Shown: positions 3,378-20,792 of the stretch, one piece after another
Layout: the number at the start of each line of letters is the position of its first letter
How positions within the stretch are numbered: position 1 is the stretch's first letter
IMG/VR virus record: IMGVR_UViG_3300031251_000107
Span: 1 to 23,306 of that record
Strand: one strand, 5' to 3'
Origin: a virus
Length of the DNA: 23,306 nucleotides
Translations under genes and position numbers: made by a program
Notes under the pieces: model-generated
Seen by the model: the letters and a program-made list of their open reading frames with translations, nothing else
Told to the model about the DNA's origin: nothing
Databases searched by the model: none

Positions 3378-4085
3378 TTAACCGACGAGCTTGCCGCCGG
3401 CCAGCGAAAACTTTTGCCGTTGCGCCGGGGACAATTGGTCGAACGCGGCGCGACTGAGGGTGTTCGTAGTGTCTCCTGCCTGCTGCTCCGCGCCGGAACC
3501 CTGGCCGCCACTGGCTTTGGCGAGATACGGCTTATCCTTCAACAGCGCCGCGACGGCCTCAGCGGGCGGCTTGCCGTTGATCGTCACCACGCCGTTCTCC
3601 ACTTTACCCTGGCCGGCCAGGAGCTGCTGCACGACAGAGGGATCGACCGCGCCGGAGGCCGCGCCCAGGATCGCCGTGTTGACGCGCTCCCGATCCAATT
3701 CGGAATGGGCCTTGGCAAGATCGGCAGTGCGCTGGTCGAGCAGCTTGTCGGTCTCGCCTTTGCGCCGTGCCTCCGACTCCTGGAATGCGGACAGCGACTC
3801 ATGCCCGGTCGCCGACTTGAACTGCTGATTCCATTCTTTCTGCTGCATGGCCAGCGCCTTCGCAACCTCCGCCTGCACATCGACCGCCGCCGCGCCGGGC
3901 TGTCCACCCTGGCCCGCGCCCGCGCCGGTTTTCGCGCCAGGATTGCCACTCGGCGAACCGCCTCCCGCCGCGCCCGCTGCGCCCGCCGCTCCACCCTCGC
4001 CTTCGGTCACGGCGAACAGCGGCAGGAATGGAAAGAACACATAGCCGATCAGGCCGAGGAAATGAAGAACGTACAGTCGCCGCAT
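3378..4085 (-). CDS. Probable capsid scaffold protein with an N-terminal hydrophobic segment
   Basis: 235 residues from ATG 4085, chosen for the well-placed GGAGA; a longer frame begins at 4184 but lacks a ribosome site. Residues 4-25 are strongly hydrophobic, like a membrane anchor. A Gly/Ala/Ser linker follows (about 27-66), then a charged helical region with coiled-coil character (about 70-145), and the C-terminus ends LSPAQRQKFSLAGGKLVG. The position before the capsid gene, the low-complexity linker and the charged helices fit a phage scaffold. The hydrophobic N-terminus is unusual. No GTG/ATG with a ribosome site after it would remove it: GTG 4010 has none. Confidence 0.6.
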   Translation of the reverse strand: MRRLYVLHFLGLIGYVFFPFLPLFAVTEGEGGAAGAAGAAGGGSPSGNPGAKTGAGAGQGGQPGAAAVDVQAEVAKALAMQQKEWNQQFKSATGHESLSAFQESEARRKGETDKLLDQRTADLAKAHSELDRERVNTAILGAASGAVDPSVVQQLLAGQGKVENGVVTINGKPPAEAVAALLKDKPYLAKASGGQGSGAEQQAGDTTNTLSRAAFDQLSPAQRQKFSLAGGKLVG

Positions 4086-4313
4086 GGCAGTCTCCGAAAA
4101 TGAATGAGGGGAAATCTCAACGCGGCCACAGCATAACCCGGCCCGCGCCAGCCGCTGCCGCGCCAGCCTATGGGGGAAAAACAATCAAGCGGGGAATTTT
4201 CAGCCAACCGCCTGTCAGACGATTTAAGACGCTCTCAAAAGCCAAGGGCGGCAAGGACATGGAAATGGCCGTTGCGTGGCAGGAAGCCTTTTGCGCAACG
4301 GCGGAAATGGCAC
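4086..4313 (-). other. Intergenic gap with a stem-loop between the MuF and scaffold genes
   Basis: This 228-bp gap is the only sizeable one inside the head module. Near its upstream end is a 9-bp perfect inverted repeat (GCCGTTGCG at 4268-4276, CGCAACGGC at 4294-4302). It is flanked by a direct repeat GGAAATGGC at 4261-4269 and 4303-4311. No T run follows, so it is not a plain intrinsic terminator. RNA processing or partial attenuation is possible. No convincing promoter was found. Confidence 0.55.
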
Positions 4314-5376: not shown

Positions 5377-6768
5377 TCACGCGCCTCCCGCCTGCTGCTG
5401 CATGCGGTCGCCATACGGGTCGGTGGCCTGGTCAATCTCGCTGTCGATGATGCCCATCGTCGCCGCCGGCACGCCATGCCCCAGCACCTGCCGGGCTGTG
5501 CGCTTCTTCAATTCCTTCTCGAATGTCGGCGATATTTTCAGCGTCGTGGCGGTCAGCGCGGTTTGCAAATCGGTCGACAGGTCGGTCAGATTGAAATCTC
5601 TGGGGTAGCTAATGGTGCCCGTCTGCTCGCCCTCCCAGGCGGCGACGATCTGCGCGATCTCGCGCTCGGCGGCTTCGCACTGCGCCGCGACCAGGCCCAT
5701 GGAGGAATTCGCCTTCTGGAACTGGAACGACATGGCGACGGCGGACGCATGCACCCCGGCGATGAATTCCAGGTTGGCCGCTTTATAGATGCCGGTGATC
5801 GTCGCATCGACCTCCTTCTGATACTGGTCAATCGGATCGGCAGGCGGGGCGATGTAGCCCGGCTTGCCGCCGCCGGTTGGATTGTAGGTCAGCGCGTTGT
5901 CGGTGCCGAGCGTCAAATCTTTCAGTTTCTCGGCCTCGTCGCCGTCCACGATTGGAATCGTCAAAATCGAGAATGTCTGCTTGCGGAACAGCGTGCGTTT
6001 CTCGCTCTCCAGGTTGTACAAACTCCAATTTAGCTGCGAGATGCCGAACGCCCACGGGTCGGCGCGGAGCTGTCCCGGCAACAATGGCACGGTCGAGTTC
6101 AACCGCACCACCGGCACCCGGCCCAGCTTATGCTCGCCTTGCGCGGTGACCAGATAACCCGCCTCGTCCAGGCTGATTTTCCAGCCGGTGCGGGTGAAGG
6201 TGCGGTAGCGCATCGCGCCGAGGCCGACCAGCGAGGCCAGCGATTGCAGCATCCCCAGCCCGAACGATGGCGTGGTCTCGGCCCCATCCGCCACTTCGCG
6301 GAAAGTGATCGACTCCAACTGGCCGTTGGAGTCCAGCTTGTAGCGGGCCACCTGGCCGGGCAGCCGCATCGCCAGATACGGCGCGGGCTGCTGGGCGCGG
6401 GTCTGCGGAATCACCGGGGCGCGGTCGACGATCAGCCACACGCTGCCCAGCACCATGGCGATGAGCTGATCGGTTTGCAGCACGTAATCCAGCGAATGCC
6501 CGGCCCCGTCCGCGTTGAGCGTGAACGCGGCATAGCCGTCGCCGGATTCGCGGGCGGGCTGGCGTTTCCACAGATACCCGGAATAGGTGTCCACCACGTC
6601 CCGCACGTAATTCGGATAGACGCTGATCGCGGCTCGCTCTTCCAGGTCGTCCAGCGATTCGCGCTTGTGCGGCACCAGATAGCGTCCGGTCAAATAGCCG
6701 CCCCGGCCCATGTAGCAGTCCAGCAAAAAGCTGTCGCTGTAGCGGTCGACGGTTTTGTTGGTGGCCAT
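5377..6768 (-). CDS. Portal protein, DUF4055 type
   Basis: 463 residues from ATG 6768 with GAGGGG upstream, two bases after the endolysin stop. It lies between the terminase/endolysin genes and MuF, the portal position. The N-terminal region (LDDLEERAAISVYPNYVRDVVDTYSGYLWKR, about residues 38-69), the central segment after FRKQTFSILTIP and the late YKAANLEFIAGVHASAVAMSFQ match what I know of DUF4055 portals. Portals form the dodecameric DNA channel at one capsid vertex. Mu-type phages normally carry a DUF935 portal, so this gene indicates that the head module was exchanged. Length is normal for the family. Confidence 0.75.
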   Translation of the reverse strand: MATNKTVDRYSDSFLLDCYMGRGGYLTGRYLVPHKRESLDDLEERAAISVYPNYVRDVVDTYSGYLWKRQPARESGDGYAAFTLNADGAGHSLDYVLQTDQLIAMVLGSVWLIVDRAPVIPQTRAQQPAPYLAMRLPGQVARYKLDSNGQLESITFREVADGAETTPSFGLGMLQSLASLVGLGAMRYRTFTRTGWKISLDEAGYLVTAQGEHKLGRVPVVRLNSTVPLLPGQLRADPWAFGISQLNWSLYNLESEKRTLFRKQTFSILTIPIVDGDEAEKLKDLTLGTDNALTYNPTGGGKPGYIAPPADPIDQYQKEVDATITGIYKAANLEFIAGVHASAVAMSFQFQKANSSMGLVAAQCEAAEREIAQIVAAWEGEQTGTISYPRDFNLTDLSTDLQTALTATTLKISPTFEKELKKRTARQVLGHGVPAATMGIIDSEIDQATDPYGDRMQQQAGGA

Positions 6769-7151: not shown

Positions 7152-8810
7152 TCAAAGCCCTTTCATGCGTAAGGATCGGTAAGTTCGTTTTTGGCCGCTG
7201 ACCGCCAGAGACCACAGCATTTCCAGCCCGTCCGGGCCGTCGTCATGGTCGGCTTTAGGCCAGTGGGTAAGCTGGTCAATCAATGTCACCAGGCGCGGAT
7301 GGACGCGGATCAGGCCGTTGGCGCAATGCGGCTGCAAGGATTCGATGCGCAAATCCTTGTCGCCACGCGAGACGATGCCTTTGGCGGGCACGGGAACCCC
7401 TAAAATCGCCGAGCGCTTGACCAGTTCGTCCTTCAGGAACTCCTGGAACTGGATGATCTCCACCGCCCACATCAGGCAGTGGTATTCGCGCTGGAACTCG
7501 ACGATGTCGGAGATGATCCGGTCGGGCTTGCGCTTCTTGATCTGCGCCTCGACCACGTCGAGAATGCCGGTAGCGCGGTTATAGCCGCCTACCAGGATCG
7601 CGGACGGATCATTACGGGCGGCGGTCTTGCCCATCGACGGGTCGCACGATCCATACATGATCCAATCCGCCAGCTTGTTCACCCAAAAGGTCAGGCAGCT
7701 CGCGAACGGCGCGTCTTCCGCGCTCAACGGGTCGTTTTGATACTCCGAGTCGAACGACGAATGGCCGTCCCGCGCCCGCAGCCACATCAGCTTGAACAGC
7801 GGACGGCCTTCCGGCCAGGATACCTCCGCGCCCGCGTCCATCTCGTCGCGGTGCGCCAGATAAAACTGGTAGGAGGGCAAGTCCTCGTCGGCGATCTCCT
7901 CGCCCGCGTCTTCAGCCTCCTGGACCAAGGGGAAGTCATCGTTGCGGACGATTTCCTCCCATTCATCCCACAGGCTCATGTTGTCCGGCCAGCGCAGGAT
8001 GGCCTTGAAGCTGCGCCGCCGCCAGAACGGATTTTTCAGCTTGCGCGCCAGCACGGAGTCGTAGTGCAGCACGGTGCCGATGAAGATCACGTCGAACTTG
8101 TCCGCCGCGCCGCCCAGCTTCATCACGCCCTTGTCCAGCCAGCTTTCCAGCTTGTCGCGCTGGGCCGGGTTGCCGACGTTCTCGTCGTTCTCGATATCGT
8201 CCAGCACGACCAGGTCGGGCCGGTGCGGCCCATGCCGGCGGCCGCGAATCTTCTTGCCGCTGCCGAACGCCTCCACCTTGACGTTGTTGCGGGTGACGAT
8301 CACCGCCGACTGCCACACCCGGCCCACGCCCGTCGCCTTGGGAAAGTCCATGATGAGGCGCTGGTTGAATTCCAGCTCCGCCTTGATCGCCTCCAACATC
8401 ACAGCGGCCTGGTCGAAGGCGTCCATGATGATGCAGGGGTAGTGCTTCCAGCCTTTGACCACGCACCAGATCACGAAGATTTGCGAAACGATGGTGGATT
8501 TGGCCTCGCCACGCGGCGCGGCGATGGCGTCTGACTGGCCCTTGGGGTTGCGCAGGATCGCGGGCAGGCGCTCATACAGCGCGTCGTGCAACTTGCTGTT
8601 CGGCAGCTTGATGTAGTGGGGGAAATAGGTGCGGGCGAAGAACTCAAAGCCTGCGCGGGTCTGCTGCGAAGCCTGGGCCAGGCGCTCGGCTTTGGCTTCC
8701 TCAGAGACGGCAAATCCGTCAACCTCCGCTTCGATCAGCTTCTGAAATGACTTCCTATCTTCGGAGACATCTTTCAGGAATCCTTTCTTGTCGGGCTTCC
8801 TAGCTGCCAT
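7152..8810 (-). CDS. Terminase large subunit
   Basis: 552 residues from ATG 8810, which overlaps the small-subunit stop by 11 bases; a start at 8834 would add eight residues. The packaging ATPase has a Walker A-like APRGEAKST (98-106) and a Walker B LVVLDDI (200-206). The C-terminal nuclease begins with YGSCDPSMG (aspartate 390), followed by ILVGGYN...DVVEAQ and conserved acidic residues near HDDGPDGLE (521-529). The two-domain arrangement and length are typical. The enzyme docks on the portal, drives DNA into the procapsid and cuts it, in Mu-like phages by headful packaging that includes host DNA. Confidence 0.9.
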   Translation of the reverse strand: MAARKPDKKGFLKDVSEDRKSFQKLIEAEVDGFAVSEEAKAERLAQASQQTRAGFEFFARTYFPHYIKLPNSKLHDALYERLPAILRNPKGQSDAIAAPRGEAKSTIVSQIFVIWCVVKGWKHYPCIIMDAFDQAAVMLEAIKAELEFNQRLIMDFPKATGVGRVWQSAVIVTRNNVKVEAFGSGKKIRGRRHGPHRPDLVVLDDIENDENVGNPAQRDKLESWLDKGVMKLGGAADKFDVIFIGTVLHYDSVLARKLKNPFWRRRSFKAILRWPDNMSLWDEWEEIVRNDDFPLVQEAEDAGEEIADEDLPSYQFYLAHRDEMDAGAEVSWPEGRPLFKLMWLRARDGHSSFDSEYQNDPLSAEDAPFASCLTFWVNKLADWIMYGSCDPSMGKTAARNDPSAILVGGYNRATGILDVVEAQIKKRKPDRIISDIVEFQREYHCLMWAVEIIQFQEFLKDELVKRSAILGVPVPAKGIVSRGDKDLRIESLQPHCANGLIRVHPRLVTLIDQLTHWPKADHDDGPDGLEMLWSLAVSGQKRTYRSLRMKGL

Positions 8811-9333
8811 ACAAATCCACCAGCCGCTCCGCAAACGGCTCCATCACTTCCAGGAAGGCGGAGATATGGTCGGGGTAAGCTTCGCGCACAAAGATGAACT
8901 GCTGCCGCAGCATGTCCTTCGCCAAGTCCAGCTTGGAAAGGCCCGCGCCGCTTTCGATCTTGTCCTGCAACTGCATGATGGTCTTGCACAGATTGGCATA
9001 GGCCGTGGTCGCGGCATTGTCCACGCTGCCAGCGCCTTCGATCTTTTCCAGATAGCGCTCGTAGCTGCCCTTGCGCGTAGTTAGGTCAGAGAGGATCTTC
9101 TCCCGTCCCATCAATTTGGCAATCTCGGACCGCTCCTCCTCGGCCTGCAACCGCGCCGCGCGCGCATTCCAGTCGTGCTGGCTGATCCAATCGAGCAAGG
9201 TTTGCCGGGTCAGGTTCGGCCAGGCGTACTCCTGCGCCAATTTGCGCACCGTCGCCGTCGCCGACTGGCCGCATTCGCGCCAGACCCGGAACGCCAGCTC
9301 GCGCTTTTCGGGGGGGTGGACGAGGCGGGCCAT
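8800..9333 (-). CDS. Terminase small subunit
   Basis: 177 residues. The start ATG 9333 shares one base with the preceding stop (TGATG). The N-terminal ~55 residues look like a helix-turn-helix (ATATVRKLAQEYAWPNLTRQTLLDWISQHDWNARA), suiting a DNA-recognition subunit; the remainder is helical and would oligomerise. Its position immediately before the large terminase and after the gp25/gp26-like genes matches the gp27 small terminase slot in Mu. Assignment is by position, size and the HTH. Confidence 0.75.
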   Translation of the reverse strand: MARLVHPPEKRELAFRVWRECGQSATATVRKLAQEYAWPNLTRQTLLDWISQHDWNARAARLQAEEERSEIAKLMGREKILSDLTTRKGSYERYLEKIEGAGSVDNAATTAYANLCKTIMQLQDKIESGAGLSKLDLAKDMLRQQFIFVREAYPDHISAFLEVMEPFAERLVDLYGS

Positions 9334-11570: not shown

Positions 11571-12026
11571 CTAGCTGGCCAGCTTCAAATAGCGCTCCAC
11601 GGCGGCGGGGCTGGGCTTGCCGGTGGCCTTGAAATAGTCGTACAGCGCCACGACCACCTGCGCCTTCTTGTCCGGTGCGAGCAGCAGCCGGCGGCTCGCC
11701 AGCGCCTTCTCCACGCCTTCGATCACCCCGGCCAGCGCCTCCGAATCCACGGCGGGCCGGTCAACCTCATACCCCTCCGCCTTTTCCGCCACGGGCGCGG
11801 CCTGGGCGGGCTTTTCCGCCCCGCCTGCCGAGCGCTGGCCGGTCAGGATGTACTGCACATCAACCCCAGCCCTAGAAATCGCAACCAAATACTCGGCGTC
11901 AGGCGAACGCTCGCCCGATTCATAATGTGATTGAGAACGTCTGGTTACATTGCCTTTCCCAGCAAAATCAGTCTGGTTTAGGCCCAATCGTTCCCTTTCT
12001 GCTTTCAGTCTTTCGCCAAGGGTCAC
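11571..12026 (-). CDS. Phage repressor, XRE-type helix-turn-helix
   Basis: 151 residues from GTG 12026, chosen for the GAGA upstream and a typical MTLGERLKAERERLGL start; TTG 12038 would add four residues. Residues ~5-62 are a XRE domain (LNQTDFAGKGNVTRRSQSHYESGERSPDAEYLVAISRAGVDVQYILTGQ). A Pro/Ala linker leads to a helical C-terminal domain (about 88-151) probably for oligomerisation. No S24/LexA-type protease motif is seen, so induction would not be by RecA-stimulated self-cleavage. It is transcribed away from the early operon and would hold that promoter shut. The 18-bp palindrome at 12064-12081 is its likely operator. Confidence 0.85.
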   Translation of the reverse strand: MTLGERLKAERERLGLNQTDFAGKGNVTRRSQSHYESGERSPDAEYLVAISRAGVDVQYILTGQRSAGGAEKPAQAAPVAEKAEGYEVDRPAVDSEALAGVIEGVEKALASRRLLLAPDKKAQVVVALYDYFKATGKPSPAAVERYLKLAS

Positions 12027-12056
12027 AAATATTCTCAAAAAAGTGCGTTTCGCCTA

Positions 12057-12085
12057 TTGACTGTGTGAACGAATGTTCACATAAT
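12057..12085 (+). promoter_or_regulatory. Early promoter
   Basis: TTGACT (12057-12062) and CATAAT (12080-12085) are separated by 17 bases, each matching the sigma-70 consensus in five of six positions. Transcription would start near 12092, leaving a leader of about 80 bases before the first early gene. Confidence 0.75.
12064..12081. promoter_or_regulatory. Operator palindrome inside the early promoter
   Basis: TGTGAACGAATGTTCACA is a perfect 7-bp inverted repeat around a 4-base centre. It fills the spacer between the -35 and -10 boxes, so a bound dimer would block polymerase. A related half site GTGAATATT lies at 12136-12144. A second small palindrome TTGCA-TCT-TGCAA sits at 12100-12112 in the leader. 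Confidence 0.75.
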
Positions 12086-12170: not shown

Positions 12171-13217
12171 ATGGCCAAGCACCGCCACCCCCGCAACCGC
12201 CCCAACCCCGGCCAGCCGGAACCCCGGCCCAACCGCCTGACACTCGACTACGCCCACCAGGCCGTGCTGCTCGACGCCGCCGTGTCCGGTTATTTCAACG
12301 TGGTGCGCGAACTCGGCGACGACTTCCTGCTGAAGCTCGTCCAGCGCCCCCTGGCCAGCGAAGGCTCTGCCGCGCCCCGGCACGGCGACCGCCTGGTCGC
12401 CTATTCGTTTTGGGAGATGTTCTCGGGCTTTCAAGGCGGCGGCTATACCGTCGCCAAAGCCCCGAACGGCCACGACGCCCTGGATGCGTTCGCCCAGTTC
12501 TGCGATCCGGGCATCGACGGCTTGCCGCAGGGGGTTCCCGACCAGCTATGGGCCGACACGGCGCTGATCGCCCAGCTGGGCAGCTTCAAGGACATCGTCG
12601 GCGAGCTAGGCGTGGGCGTCTACAAGAGCTTTCCGGCCAGCGCGGGATTTCCCTACCAAAGCCGACAGGCGTTTGAGCGCGGCTTTTTCATGCAGGCGGT
12701 CAACCAGGACGCGAACGGGGAAATCACCCTTTCCGAACTCAACGCCCGCTATGCCGCCTACCTGGCCCGGATCAACGGCCACAAATCCCGCTGGAACCCG
12801 GCCCTGACCAAGCGCCGGGCGTGGCAACAATCTGCCGACGAGCGGGCCAGGCGGGGACACCCCGTCCGCCCCTGGCCCGACAACGCCCTGCAAACCCTGT
12901 GCAAAGCGGTGCGCCGCCGGGTTGACCGCCAAGGCTACACGCAGTTCGACGGCCAGGACGTCCATTGCGAAGGCGTCACGCCTCTTTCTTGGGTGGTGTT
13001 GTATTTCGACCCGTTTGAGCCGGCGCAACTGCGTTGGCGCTATCTAGAAGCTGGAACACCGCCTGGTACAGGGCCGTCGTGCATTTCTGCATTACCCGGC
13101 CTGCCTCGCACTGGGCGTCATATTGACCGTAGCCCGCACAGTAAAAGGCATTCGGACAGCGGGAATAGGCTTGGAAGTGCCTTTGGTCAAGCCGGGCCGG
13201 AAGCCGATCCTGGCTGA
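12171..13217 (+). CDS. Truncated transposase (MuA-like) paralogue lacking the catalytic glutamate
   Basis: 348 codons from ATG 12171 with GGAGA upstream. Residues ~23-295 align with the core of the full transposase at 17880: both have DYAHQAV, SGYF, YSFWE-FSG, GEITLSELNAR and RRAWQ/KLQAWQ blocks. Both start MAKH, but about 120 residues of N-terminal DNA-binding region are absent here. Two catalytic Asp are kept (35 and 129), but the Glu that follows 36 residues later in the full enzyme has no counterpart: the segment is six residues shorter and reads SAGFPYQSRQAFER. After about residue 295 the frame runs antisense to a Zn-finger gene and is probably not natural sequence. It occupies the first slot of the early operon, where Mu has ner. 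Possibly a regulator or dominant-negative subunit, or a decaying duplicate. Confidence 0.7.
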   Translation: MAKHRHPRNRPNPGQPEPRPNRLTLDYAHQAVLLDAAVSGYFNVVRELGDDFLLKLVQRPLASEGSAAPRHGDRLVAYSFWEMFSGFQGGGYTVAKAPNGHDALDAFAQFCDPGIDGLPQGVPDQLWADTALIAQLGSFKDIVGELGVGVYKSFPASAGFPYQSRQAFERGFFMQAVNQDANGEITLSELNARYAAYLARINGHKSRWNPALTKRRAWQQSADERARRGHPVRPWPDNALQTLCKAVRRRVDRQGYTQFDGQDVHCEGVTPLSWVVLYFDPFEPAQLRWRYLEAGTPPGTGPSCISALPGLPRTGRHIDRSPHSKRHSDSGNRLGSAFGQAGPEADPG

Positions 13218-13389
13218 TCGGCAGGGCAAACCGCCCGCAGGCCGGGCAGAGATGCTGGAAACCCATGCCAATCGGCATGACGGCCTCAGGATCGCGCAGC
13301 AACTCCGTCTCACCGGGAATTTCCGGGACAGCCACTGAAAACCGGTGGCGGCAAAACGGACAAACGTAGGTTTCATTGATTCTAGTCAT
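12976..13389 (-). CDS. Zinc-binding protein on the opposite strand of the early operon
   Basis: 137 residues from ATG 13389 with AGAGGA six bases upstream. Two CxxC pairs (C10/C13 in VCPFCRHRF; C48/C51 in LCPACGRF) form a likely zinc ribbon; four more Cys follow (78, 84, 94, 103). The C-terminal ~25 residues (VAPAQTGRNTTPPKKEA) lie antisense to the transposase paralogue and look unstructured. It runs against every neighbour, so it is probably expressed separately, for example in the lysogen. Upstream there is only a weak promoter candidate with an extended -10 (TGCTACGCT). Function unknown. Its transcript would be antisense to the end of the paralogue mRNA. Confidence 0.65.
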   Translation of the reverse strand: MTRINETYVCPFCRHRFSVAVPEIPGETELLRDPEAVMPIGMGFQHLCPACGRFALPISQDRLPARLDQRHFQAYSRCPNAFYCAGYGQYDAQCEAGRVMQKCTTALYQAVFQLLDSANAVAPAQTGRNTTPPKKEA

Positions 13390-13765: not shown

Positions 13766-14002
13766 ATGGACGTGGGGAAGGAGCTTTACCAGTTAGTGCG
13801 CTCCAGGCTAGTGATGCGGGAGACCTCGCTCAATGCCTGGAGCAAGGACTGCGGCTATACCCGCCAGTTTGTCGAGCAGGCGCTGCTGGGCAAGGCCAAG
13901 GGCCAAGCCGCCGAATCGCTGGTGCGGCATGTGTGCCAGGCGGCGGGCGTGGCGCTGGAAGGCTCCGACGCCACGCCCCGGCGGCGCAAAGACGACCACT
14001 AG
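13766..14002 (+). CDS. Small DNA-binding protein, possible Ner-like regulator
   Basis: 78 residues from ATG 13766, four bases after the previous stop. The central part (TSLNAWSKDCGYTRQFVEQALLGKAKGQAAESLVRHVCQAAG, about residues 20-61) reads as a helix-turn-helix, and the C-terminus is basic (TPRRRKDDH). Small HTH proteins early in the operon of Mu-like phages (Ner) dampen early and repressor transcription, and this is the best candidate here. The family call is from pattern only. Confidence 0.55.
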   Translation: MDVGKELYQLVRSRLVMRETSLNAWSKDCGYTRQFVEQALLGKAKGQAAESLVRHVCQAAGVALEGSDATPRRRKDDH

Positions 14003-17879: not shown

Positions 17880-19568
17880 ATGGCCAAGCACACCAAAATC
17901 CGGCCCAGCCTGCTGGCGAAGATGTATCACGAACTGCAGGCGCTCGGCCATGGCGACAAGACCGAGCAGGCAAAAAAAATGGCGGACTTGCACAAAATCT
18001 CGGTCGCCAAACTCTACCGGCAATTTTCTACCGCCGGACTGTCCGAGCGCACCCTGCGCAAGTCGGAGGCGGAAAAGCCCGAGTATCGGGAATGGGTGGC
18101 GATGGTGATGGCGCTGGCGCTGAAGACCCGCGACGGCAAGCCCGTCGCGATGGTCGACGCCCTCCCCGCCGCCGTGCAGGCCGGATTAGTCCCCCCTGAG
18201 GCGCTGAAGGTGAACATCAATACATTCCACCGCATCGCCCGCGAAATGGGGTTCCGCGACACCCAAGGCAAGGTCAACCGGCTGGCGGCGGACTACGCCC
18301 ACCAGGCGGTGTTGTTCGACGCCTCCACCTCTGGGTATTTCAGCGTGGTGAAGGAGCTGGAGGACGGCGACTACTTGCTCCGTTTGAACAAGCGCCCCCA
18401 TGCCGACTACAAGAATAAGCCGGTTGGCAAGGAGCGGCTGCGGGTCATCGTCTATTCGTTTTGGGAGATTTTCAGCGGCTACCAGTGGGCCACTTACACC
18501 GCCGCCAAAGGGGAAAACGGCTATGACGCGATGGCCGCGTTCATCCAGTTCTGTGAACCAAAGAACGATTCCCGCGATCCGGTGCAAGGCTTGCCTGAGC
18601 AGTTCTGGGCCGACCAAGGCCCGATTGCCAAACTGGGGGCCAGCGTCGACCTCATCACCCGCCTCGGTGTCGAGATCAACAAAGGCCGCCCCTACGAGAA
18701 GGAGCGCATGGGCGGCGTCGAACGCACTCACCGCAGCCGTTGGAGCTTTGAGCGCACCTTTTATATGGCGTTGCTCAACGCCCCCCCGGCGGCGGGCGAA
18801 GGCGAGGCGGAGCGGGCTTTGACCCCGGCCGAAAAAGGCGAAATCACCCTCTCCGAACTCAACGCCCGCTGCGCCGCGCACCGCGCCCGGCTGAACAGCT
18901 ACAAGGCGAGGTGGAATCCGACCAAGACCAAGCTGCAAGCCTGGCAATTGTCGGCCAGCGAACGCGCCCGGGCGGACAACCCGATCCGCCGCCTGCCGGA
19001 GAACGCCATCGAGACCATGGCGACCGAAGTGCGCCGGCGCGTGGGCCGCGATGGCGTGTTCACCTGGGACAACCAGTTCTACGAGGTCGCGGACGGCATC
19101 CATTCCCGTTGGGTCATGGCCCGCCGCAGTCTGGAAGAGCCGGGCAAAGTCGTGGTGGAGGACATCGAGACCGGCAAGCGCTTCCAGACCACGCCATTCC
19201 AGCCGCGCAAGCTGGGCGAGTACCGCGCATTCCCCAAGTCCATCGTCCAAGAGGCCAAGGAGATCGGCGCGGAATTGTCGGTGGCCTCGCCCTACGCCTC
19301 CGAGGCCGCGCCGAACGTGCTGGCCTTCCCACCGCGCACCGCCGAACCCGCCCACCTGCCCAACCCGCTGGAAGCGGGCAAGTACAACACGCTCGGCGAG
19401 GCGCTGCGGGCATTCATGGAATGGCACGGGATGCCGACCTTCGCCGCCGACTACCCGGAGGAATTCGACACCGCCGTCGAGCTGATCCAAGACAACGGCT
19501 TGAACAAAGAGTACGTCCGCACTTTGGCGCTTGACCTTCGTCAGGCGATGCGGGCCGGAAACCAATAG
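17880..19568 (+). CDS. A: Transposase, MuA-like DDE recombinase
   Basis: 562 residues from ATG 17880 with AGGA upstream. Residues 1-130 are helical and contain HTH-like DNA-binding segments (TEQAKKMADLHKISVAKLYRQF; NINTFHRIAREMGF). The RNase H-like catalytic core carries D147 (LFDAS), D245 (FWADQGP) and E281 (GVERTH), a DD35E spacing. A beta-rich region (about 395-440) and a C-terminal tail, likely the ATPase-contacting part, follow. The enzyme cuts the prophage ends and joins them to target DNA for integration and replicative transposition. It is followed by a small Zn protein and the AAA+ partner. Its nearest relative visible here is the truncated copy at 12171. Confidence 0.9.
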   Translation: MAKHTKIRPSLLAKMYHELQALGHGDKTEQAKKMADLHKISVAKLYRQFSTAGLSERTLRKSEAEKPEYREWVAMVMALALKTRDGKPVAMVDALPAAVQAGLVPPEALKVNINTFHRIAREMGFRDTQGKVNRLAADYAHQAVLFDASTSGYFSVVKELEDGDYLLRLNKRPHADYKNKPVGKERLRVIVYSFWEIFSGYQWATYTAAKGENGYDAMAAFIQFCEPKNDSRDPVQGLPEQFWADQGPIAKLGASVDLITRLGVEINKGRPYEKERMGGVERTHRSRWSFERTFYMALLNAPPAAGEGEAERALTPAEKGEITLSELNARCAAHRARLNSYKARWNPTKTKLQAWQLSASERARADNPIRRLPENAIETMATEVRRRVGRDGVFTWDNQFYEVADGIHSRWVMARRSLEEPGKVVVEDIETGKRFQTTPFQPRKLGEYRAFPKSIVQEAKEIGAELSVASPYASEAAPNVLAFPPRTAEPAHLPNPLEAGKYNTLGEALRAFMEWHGMPTFAADYPEEFDTAVELIQDNGLNKEYVRTLALDLRQAMRAGNQ

Positions 19569-19579
19569 GAGCCACCATC

Positions 19580-19762
19580 ATGAATGACCATGAAGAAGAT
19601 GATGACCTTTGCCCGGACTGCGGCCTCAATCCTTATGACTGTGAATGCCATATAGGCGATGAGTGTGGCCGCTGGAACAATGGAAAATTGATGCCTTATT
19701 GCGCCAAGGCAGGCTCCGAAGAATGCGAGTGGGAATGTCCCTTTCGCGCGACTCCTAATTAA
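19580..19762 (+). CDS. Cys-rich small zinc-ribbon protein
   Basis: 60 residues from ATG 19580 with TAGGAG upstream, 11 bases after the transposase. Eight cysteines (11, 14, 21, 23, 29, 41, 49, 53) and many acidic residues: CPDCGLNPYDCECH, then CGRW, YCAK and CEWECPF. It probably binds one or two zinc ions. Its place between transposase and ATPase suggests a link to transposition, but no homologue is known to me. Confidence 0.65.
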   Translation: MNDHEEDDDLCPDCGLNPYDCECHIGDECGRWNNGKLMPYCAKAGSEECEWECPFRATPN

Positions 19763-19781
19763 AATGACCAAGAGAAAAACC

Positions 19782-20792
19782 ATGTCCTACCTCACCCTTC
19801 ACCACTTCGGCCTCCCGCAAAACGTCTTCGCCCGCACCCTGGACACCGTTGACCAGGGCAATGTGGCGGTCAACGTCAAAGGAGCCATCCAGAACAACAA
19901 CTATGCCGTCGTCACCGGCCCGCGCGGCGCGGGCAAGTCCAGCGCGGTCGCCGCGGCTATCGCCAGCTTGCAGACCGAACTCGCCGAACAGGCCAAAGGC
20001 AAGTCCGCCAAGCCGCAAATCCAGCTCATTGAGCCGTTGACCCTCGACCGCGAGCGCATGCGCATCAATGCCATCGTCGATTCGATCATCTACGACCTGT
20101 CCAACGAATCGCTCAAGGCCACGGCGGAGGCGCGGATTCGCCAAATCCGCCCCATCCTCGGCGAGGCGGCGGGCAAAGGCCCGGTGGTGTTGAAACTGGA
20201 AGAGGCCCACCGTCTGCACCATTCGACGATCCGCGCGCTGAAATCGTTGATGGAGTTGAAATGGCTGGGGCGCGGGCCGCTGCTGTCGATCATCCTGGTC
20301 GGCCAGAAAGACCCGACCACCCACCCGACCATGGAAGAAGTCGGCAAGCGGGCCAAGGACGGGCGGATCAGGATGGCCGGCCTGTCCGAAGCGGAGGCCG
20401 CGGCCTACATCCAAGGCACCGTGGGCAGCGTCTGGACGGAGGAGGCCGTCGCCGCCATCGCGGCCACGCCGGCGGCGCGGAACTACTTGGATTTGCAAGA
20501 GGCGTTGATCGCGGCGATGGACCAGGCACTGGCCGAGGGCCGCAAGATCGTCGAACTGTCCGACGTGTTCGAGGCGACCGGCGCGGGGCTGGCGGAAATG
20601 GCGAAAAAGTTGAATGTGCCGCTGTCGGACATTGGCAAGGCCATCGGCAAATCGCCCAGCCAGGCGCTGCGGATCATGACGGGCGAGCGCGAAGATTTGG
20701 ATGCGAAAGCCCGGATTCAGGCGATGCTGGCCAAGCGCGCCAAGGGCGGAGAACCGGCGGAAGAGCCCGCTCAAAAAGTAGCCAACGGGTAG
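19782..20792 (+). CDS. B: AAA+ ATPase, MuB-like transposition target selector
   Basis: 336 residues from ATG 19782 (AGAGA upstream); an in-frame ATG at 19764 has no ribosome site. Walker A is GPRGAGKSS (46-54), Walker B lies within VVLKLEEAHRLH (135-146, with E140/E141), and sensor-1-like ILVGQKD is at 171-177. The overall plan (AAA+ core, then C-terminal helices with an HTH-like GLAEMAKKLNVPLSDIGKAIGK at about 270-292) fits the MuB/TniB group. MuB binds DNA with ATP, captures the target and activates MuA. Together with the preceding transposase it forms the A-B pair; a small Zn gene is inserted between them. Confidence 0.85.
   Translation: MSYLTLHHFGLPQNVFARTLDTVDQGNVAVNVKGAIQNNNYAVVTGPRGAGKSSAVAAAIASLQTELAEQAKGKSAKPQIQLIEPLTLDRERMRINAIVDSIIYDLSNESLKATAEARIRQIRPILGEAAGKGPVVLKLEEAHRLHHSTIRALKSLMELKWLGRGPLLSIILVGQKDPTTHPTMEEVGKRAKDGRIRMAGLSEAEAAAYIQGTVGSVWTEEAVAAIAATPAARNYLDLQEALIAAMDQALAEGRKIVELSDVFEATGAGLAEMAKKLNVPLSDIGKAIGKSPSQALRIMTGEREDLDAKARIQAMLAKRAKGGEPAEEPAQKVANG

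Follow-up and report, generated by a model that had tools for sequence, protein, structure and literature searches.

A short, almost certainly dead transposase core behind the repressor of a B3-type transposable phage

P1, the opening early gene of a transposable phage of B3 architecture, is homologous to P2, the full-length transposase of the same phage, from which it differs by truncation at both ends, clear divergence, and loss of the catalytic Glu; it is almost certainly a dead transposase derivative. The reading tentatively preferred here, at somewhat less than an even chance, is that this long-diverged derivative went on coding for a protein after its inactivation and probably interferes with an active partner. 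The open-access literature searched yielded no description of a Mu- or B3-type phage with a dead transposase paralogue encoded separately. Insertion sequences are known to restrain their own transposition by means of truncated transposases. If functional, P1 would give the lysis-lysogeny or superinfection decision a further layer, one acting on the transposition machinery and not on transcription.

Genomic organization

The window, that is, the whole stretch of DNA analyzed here, is an IMG/VR viral record of 23,306 bases. Its minus strand carries the late genes and its plus strand the early genes, with an HTH repressor between them; this divergent layout is that of phages B3 and phiSHP3, and the two-arm arrangement flanking the regulators is typical of B3 (PMC8705779). 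The features of the regulatory and early regions are as follows.

11571..12038, minus strand: HTH (XRE-type) repressor, divergent from the early genes
12057..12085, plus strand: putative early promoter (sigma70-like), TTGACT-17-CATAAT, upstream of P1
12064-12081: operator-like perfect 7-bp palindrome, TGTGAAC-N4-GTTCACA, between the promoter hexamers
12171..13217, plus strand: P1, short B3-type transposase core, almost certainly catalytically dead; 348 codons, with native coding signal from 12171 to about 12980-13030
13766..14002, plus strand: Ner-like HTH gene, 34% identical over 47 amino acids to ORF17 of B3, which is the first of that phage's early genes
15747 (start), plus strand: Gam, early gene
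17880..19568, plus strand: P2, full-length B3-type DDE transposase, with D147, D245, and E281
19764..20792, plus strand: transposition ATPase (MuB/B3 TnpB type, AAA_22)
20802 (start), plus strand: GemA, early gene

The terminase is 59-62% identical to those of D3112-like phages, and the phage is a mosaic, with a D3112-like terminase (7152-8834, minus strand) versus a B3-type early region (17880-20792, plus strand). P2 shows just 22-30% identity to any relative found. A terminase relative at 86% is L003.

P1 is the first plus-strand gene beyond the divergent repressor and lies behind the putative promoter with its palindrome, so that the initial annotation, in which P1 opened the early operon, was right as to position. 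One sigma70-like promoter match was found, with 0.4 expected by chance. A palindrome of this size within 200 bases is not rare, and the case for repressor control is therefore one of position, from which such control of the P1 promoter appears likely. The early promoter of Fc02, a B3-like phage, is found upstream of ner, and nearby genes confer superinfection exclusion (PMC9936078).

Relationship between P1 and P2

The two proteins match by BLASTP with 232 bits (E 6e-76; 43% identity over 309 columns), and P1 is the sister of P2 in the tree, placing it in the family by descent. The initial annotation had described long blocks shared with the full transposase, a missing DNA-binding N-terminus and C-terminal tail, and clear divergence from the full copy; all of these were borne out, with a core of about 260 codons at 50% identity in a gene at its own locus. 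DNA similarity spans 12230 to about 12935. The P1 frame contains no internal stop or frameshift, and the six indels in the aligned core are all in frame. Ahead of the core, P1 has about 20 residues and P2 about 130, and both the N-terminal DNA-binding (HTH end-binding) region and the C-terminus are absent from P1. The 12-nt start encoding MAKH, ATGGCCAAG, is common to P1 and P2 and occurs nowhere else in the window, which supports the proposal that P1 arose by an internal deletion joining this start to the core. P1 itself had no match in the family libraries Pfam, PHROGs, NCBIfam, and PADLOC.

Extent of the P1 coding region

The initial annotation ended P1 at 13060, which did not hold, as the open reading frame stops at 13217. 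The 348-residue frame was in turn rejected as the native gene: GC content by codon position is 0.70/0.47/0.85 up to 12980, the same as in the live early genes, and 0.67/0.48/0.52 past that point, and the codon score along the frame reaches its maximum at 13031 and is negative beyond it. From the drop in GC3 and the codon score, P1 has lost its native 3′ end, the last 60 or so residues being read-through. Two features overlap here.

13032..13217, plus strand: read-through tail of the P1 frame, showing no coding signal and lying antisense to the Cys-rich ORF
12976..13389, minus strand: Cys-rich ORF (137 amino acids, CxxC pairs), antisense to and convergent with P1, with atypical codon use

The Cys-rich ORF separates P1 from the next early gene (13483), and its stop falls where the GC3 signal of P1 ends; no relatives of it were found in phages, plasmids, or viral contigs.

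The active site of P1

The alignment set P1 beside P2, B3, and prophage relatives recovered by searching genomes. P2 keeps the catalytic D, D, and E, as does each of the 22 distinct relatives covering the columns, and these columns correspond to the catalytic triad of MuA/TnsB-like enzymes. At these columns P1 has D35, D129, and G159, with Gly replacing the Glu of the P2 E281 column and a 6-residue deletion just before it, confirming the earlier claim that the catalytic Glu is missing. The positions concerned, all on the plus strand, are as follows.

12273..12275, plus strand: D35, first catalytic Asp, kept, in LLDAA (DAS/DPS in the family); the following Ser is lost
12555..12557, plus strand: D129, second catalytic Asp, kept, in DTA; the Gly of D-x-G is lost
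12621..12665, plus strand: remodelled active-site loop, with G159 for Glu, 6 residues deleted, and atypical codon use
12675..12677, plus strand: E169, aligned with P2 E291; ten residues past the catalytic column in the same helix

On this alignment, P1 is predicted to be unable to catalyze strand transfer. It is very improbable that P1 is still an active transposase with E169 or another acid standing in for the Glu. Both Asp residues are kept and a FER motif follows, as such a reading would have it, but the P2 E291 column with which E169 aligns holds another acid, one that is not catalytic and that most of the family shares; moreover, the Ser and Gly beside the two Asp residues are lost and the DNA-binding part is missing. 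AlphaFold2 models, used in support only because of their low confidence (pLDDT 55 and pTM 0.48 for P1; pLDDT 53 and pTM 0.36 for P2), place P2 E281 where a helix begins (model residues 150-166), and E169 some ten residues inside its P1 counterpart (model residues 141-160). Thus, E169, which the initial annotation had singled out as the residue whose placement in the active site by a structural model would undo the dead-enzyme claim, neither aligns nor models there, and was rejected as the catalytic Glu. In the same low-confidence P1 model, the RNase H-like/beta-barrel order is as expected and the barrel start is present, and the best Foldseek matches are IstA and TnsB strand-transfer complexes (E 1e-4 to 3e-4).

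Selection on P1

The dN/dS comparison proposed in the initial annotation gave dN 0.43 and dS 0.89 over 257 codons, a ratio of 0.48, which is not near 1. Active transposase pairs at 48-58% identity give 0.29-0.62; since 0.48 falls within this range, dN/dS is uninformative on P1 alone and was rejected as a test of relaxed selection. By branch length, P1 (0.60) has evolved about 2.5 times faster than P2 (0.24), and Tajima tests with 14 non-independent outgroups gave chi2 values from 0.04 to 6.1. In the active-site loop, P1 and P2 are identical at 4/17 positions, compared with 114/207 in the remainder (Fisher p 0.02); the loop retains 8-17 of 20 residues in active pairs whose overall identity is the same. 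When sites were ranked by conservation in a clade excluding P1 and P2, changes in P1 amounted to 41, 43, and 57% of the successive tertiles, so that conserved sites were hit almost as often as others, whereas active pairs show 10-36, 47-64, and 59-80%.

The excess P1 branch, about 0.37 amino acid changes per site, corresponds by our rough conversion to a neutral distance of about 0.17, at which the chance of an open P1 frame is below 0.001, given assumed indel:substitution ratios of 0.03-0.1. The start codon, a Shine-Dalgarno-like GGAG, and the promoter are also intact. The earlier argument that the open frame speaks for selection therefore stands in part: the frame has stayed open longer than neutral drift easily allows, but this by itself is no sign of selection on the short form, because the divergence may largely predate the truncation. 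The evidence on selection is thus mixed. We read it as long coding constraint with clearly relaxed enzymatic constraint; coding constraint after inactivation is supported but not proven, and present-day selection on the short form is not proven.

Distribution of short transposase copies

The initial annotation had suggested seeking the same short paralogue in other prophages, and no relative of P1 came to light in the viral, genome, or phage collections. Close relatives of P1 or P2 were absent from viral contigs scanned with each of the two proteins, with the alignment of both, and with part of that alignment, from genome contigs scanned with the alignment, and from phages searched by tblastn; a P1/P2 profile had no match in 369 genomes of one class. 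The B3/D3112-type relatives from the terminase scan do not carry a second copy resembling P1, and a short transposase copy is likewise missing from B3, phiSHP3, and nine further B3-like prophage regions.

A full-length transposase is present at 109 loci, of which just L074 (L188 being the same locus again) shows a clear second short core. A second partial transposase ORF in genome G960 (L211) spans an assembly gap and was rejected as a further case. At L127, a short ORF (3886-4158, minus strand) directly upstream of a full MuA-like transposase weakly resembles the D2-to-Glu segment of that transposase (E 0.003).

The L074 core belongs to a separate clade of B3-transposase-like cores of 211-234 amino acids (P0004/P0005), annotated merely as hypothetical, in which the proteins start at the core and all three catalytic residues are replaced. 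The loci are as follows.

L074, 6083-6724, plus strand: dead core
L198, 9018-9653, minus strand: dead core
L203, 6001-6642: dead core
L204, 6001-6639: dead core
L205, 5959-6663: dead core
L206/L207, near 6001-6687: dead core

Their hosts are the L074 phage, G115 (a chromosome or integrated element), and Leptospira and Cupriavidus plasmids, and a similar frame is found on Pseudomonas plasmids. The four aligned members group together with 100% support; in them, the first Asp is replaced by Val or Phe, the second always by Pro, and the Glu is also replaced, and the motifs HQL..S.S.H.Y and SGF..G are conserved. An HTH gene lies directly upstream of the dead core in G115 and L. weilii (loci L198 and L204), and in L074 an HTH-type repressor-like ORF lies three genes upstream; the L074 phage's own transposase is of another type. 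P1 falls outside this clade, grouping with P2, keeping both Asp residues, and missing the clade motifs; P1 was therefore inactivated independently.

Possible origin and function of P1

Under the preferred reading, P1 and P2 descend from a common B3-type DDE transposase ancestor. An internal deletion may have removed the N-terminal DNA-binding region of P1 while the MAKH start was kept; the catalytic Glu was also lost, as was, more recently, the native 3′ end, and P1 would have stayed protein-coding for a substantial time after inactivation. Occupying an accessory slot between the presumably repressor-controlled early promoter and the Ner-like gene, the core could be produced early after induction or infection and compete with P2, or with the transposase of a related incoming phage, for partners in the transposition complex or for DNA, which would dampen transposition. 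If P1 has a function, the likeliest is to interfere with the transposition machinery, by analogy with Tn5 Inh (PMC5101355). The chance that P1 is still a functional protein is about even. The missing relatives, the faster branch, the flatter substitution pattern, and the loss of the 3′ end and C-terminal region speak against the preferred reading, and dN/dS does not set P1 apart from active pairs.

Scarcely less likely is the account that P1 is left over from a second, related transposase that entered the early region through recombination, as an acquisition or a duplication, was cut short at both ends, only recently came free of selection, and now has no function. The open frame would then reflect selection on the full-length ancestor, and the P1-P2 divergence, being equal to that of active pairs (dN/dS 0.48), may mostly predate the truncation; the faster evolution, the ruined loop, the accidental 3′ tail, the missing relatives, and the absence of short copies from the B3-like phages and prophages surveyed agree with this. 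Against it, the state of the loop and the length of the excess branch point to numerous changes since P1 was inactivated, through which an intact frame could hardly have persisted under drift, except that the loop could have changed in one local event; the intact start codon, GGAG, and promoter likewise tell against a remnant. That P1 was instead recruited to a function apart from its own transposase, by binding DNA or a host factor or by blocking unrelated invaders, is improbable. The existence of a separate clade of short dead cores on phage, chromosome, and plasmids, some directly behind an HTH gene, lends it some credit, as does the matching slot in a B3-like relative, which bears exclusion genes (PMC9936078), but P1 is no member of that clade and lacks its motifs. 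A broader proposal, that the phage turned a diverged transposase copy into a repressor-controlled dead regulator or superinfection blocker and that dead cores are a recurring control module, is rather unlikely.

Comparison with known systems

The TnpA of phage B3 (ORF12, NC_006548) and the transposases of beetreviruses and Leptospira transposable prophages are of the same DDE type as P2, and D245 and E281 of P2 are as far apart as D269 and E305 in the published WETA1 transposase (PMC8705779). What sets P1 apart from B3 TnpA-type enzymes is the absence of the Glu, of the N-terminal end-binding region, and of the C-terminus, and none of the B3-like loci checked has a second copy such as P1.

Inh of Tn5/IS50 is the transposase minus its first 55 residues and forms non-productive complexes (PMC5101355). 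Like Inh, P1 is a short transposase relative without the N-terminal DNA-binding part, carried on the same element. Inh comes from the same gene as its transposase and acts via C-terminal dimerization, whereas P1 is a diverged, separate locus, almost certainly catalytically dead, and without the C-terminus; because P1 lacks the region that Inh uses, the analogy is one of function only. The C-terminal part of MuA-type enzymes, which contacts the ATPase, is likewise missing from P1.

In the beetreviruses Fc02 and Ps56, exclusion genes (gene 10, olg1) lie in the repressor/ner region (PMC9936078), the same genomic slot as P1, near the repressor and early promoter; the proteins are small and are not described in that paper as transposase relatives. 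The dead-core clade resembles P1 in that both are short, start at the core, and lack catalytic residues, with the whole D/D/E triad replaced in the clade only.
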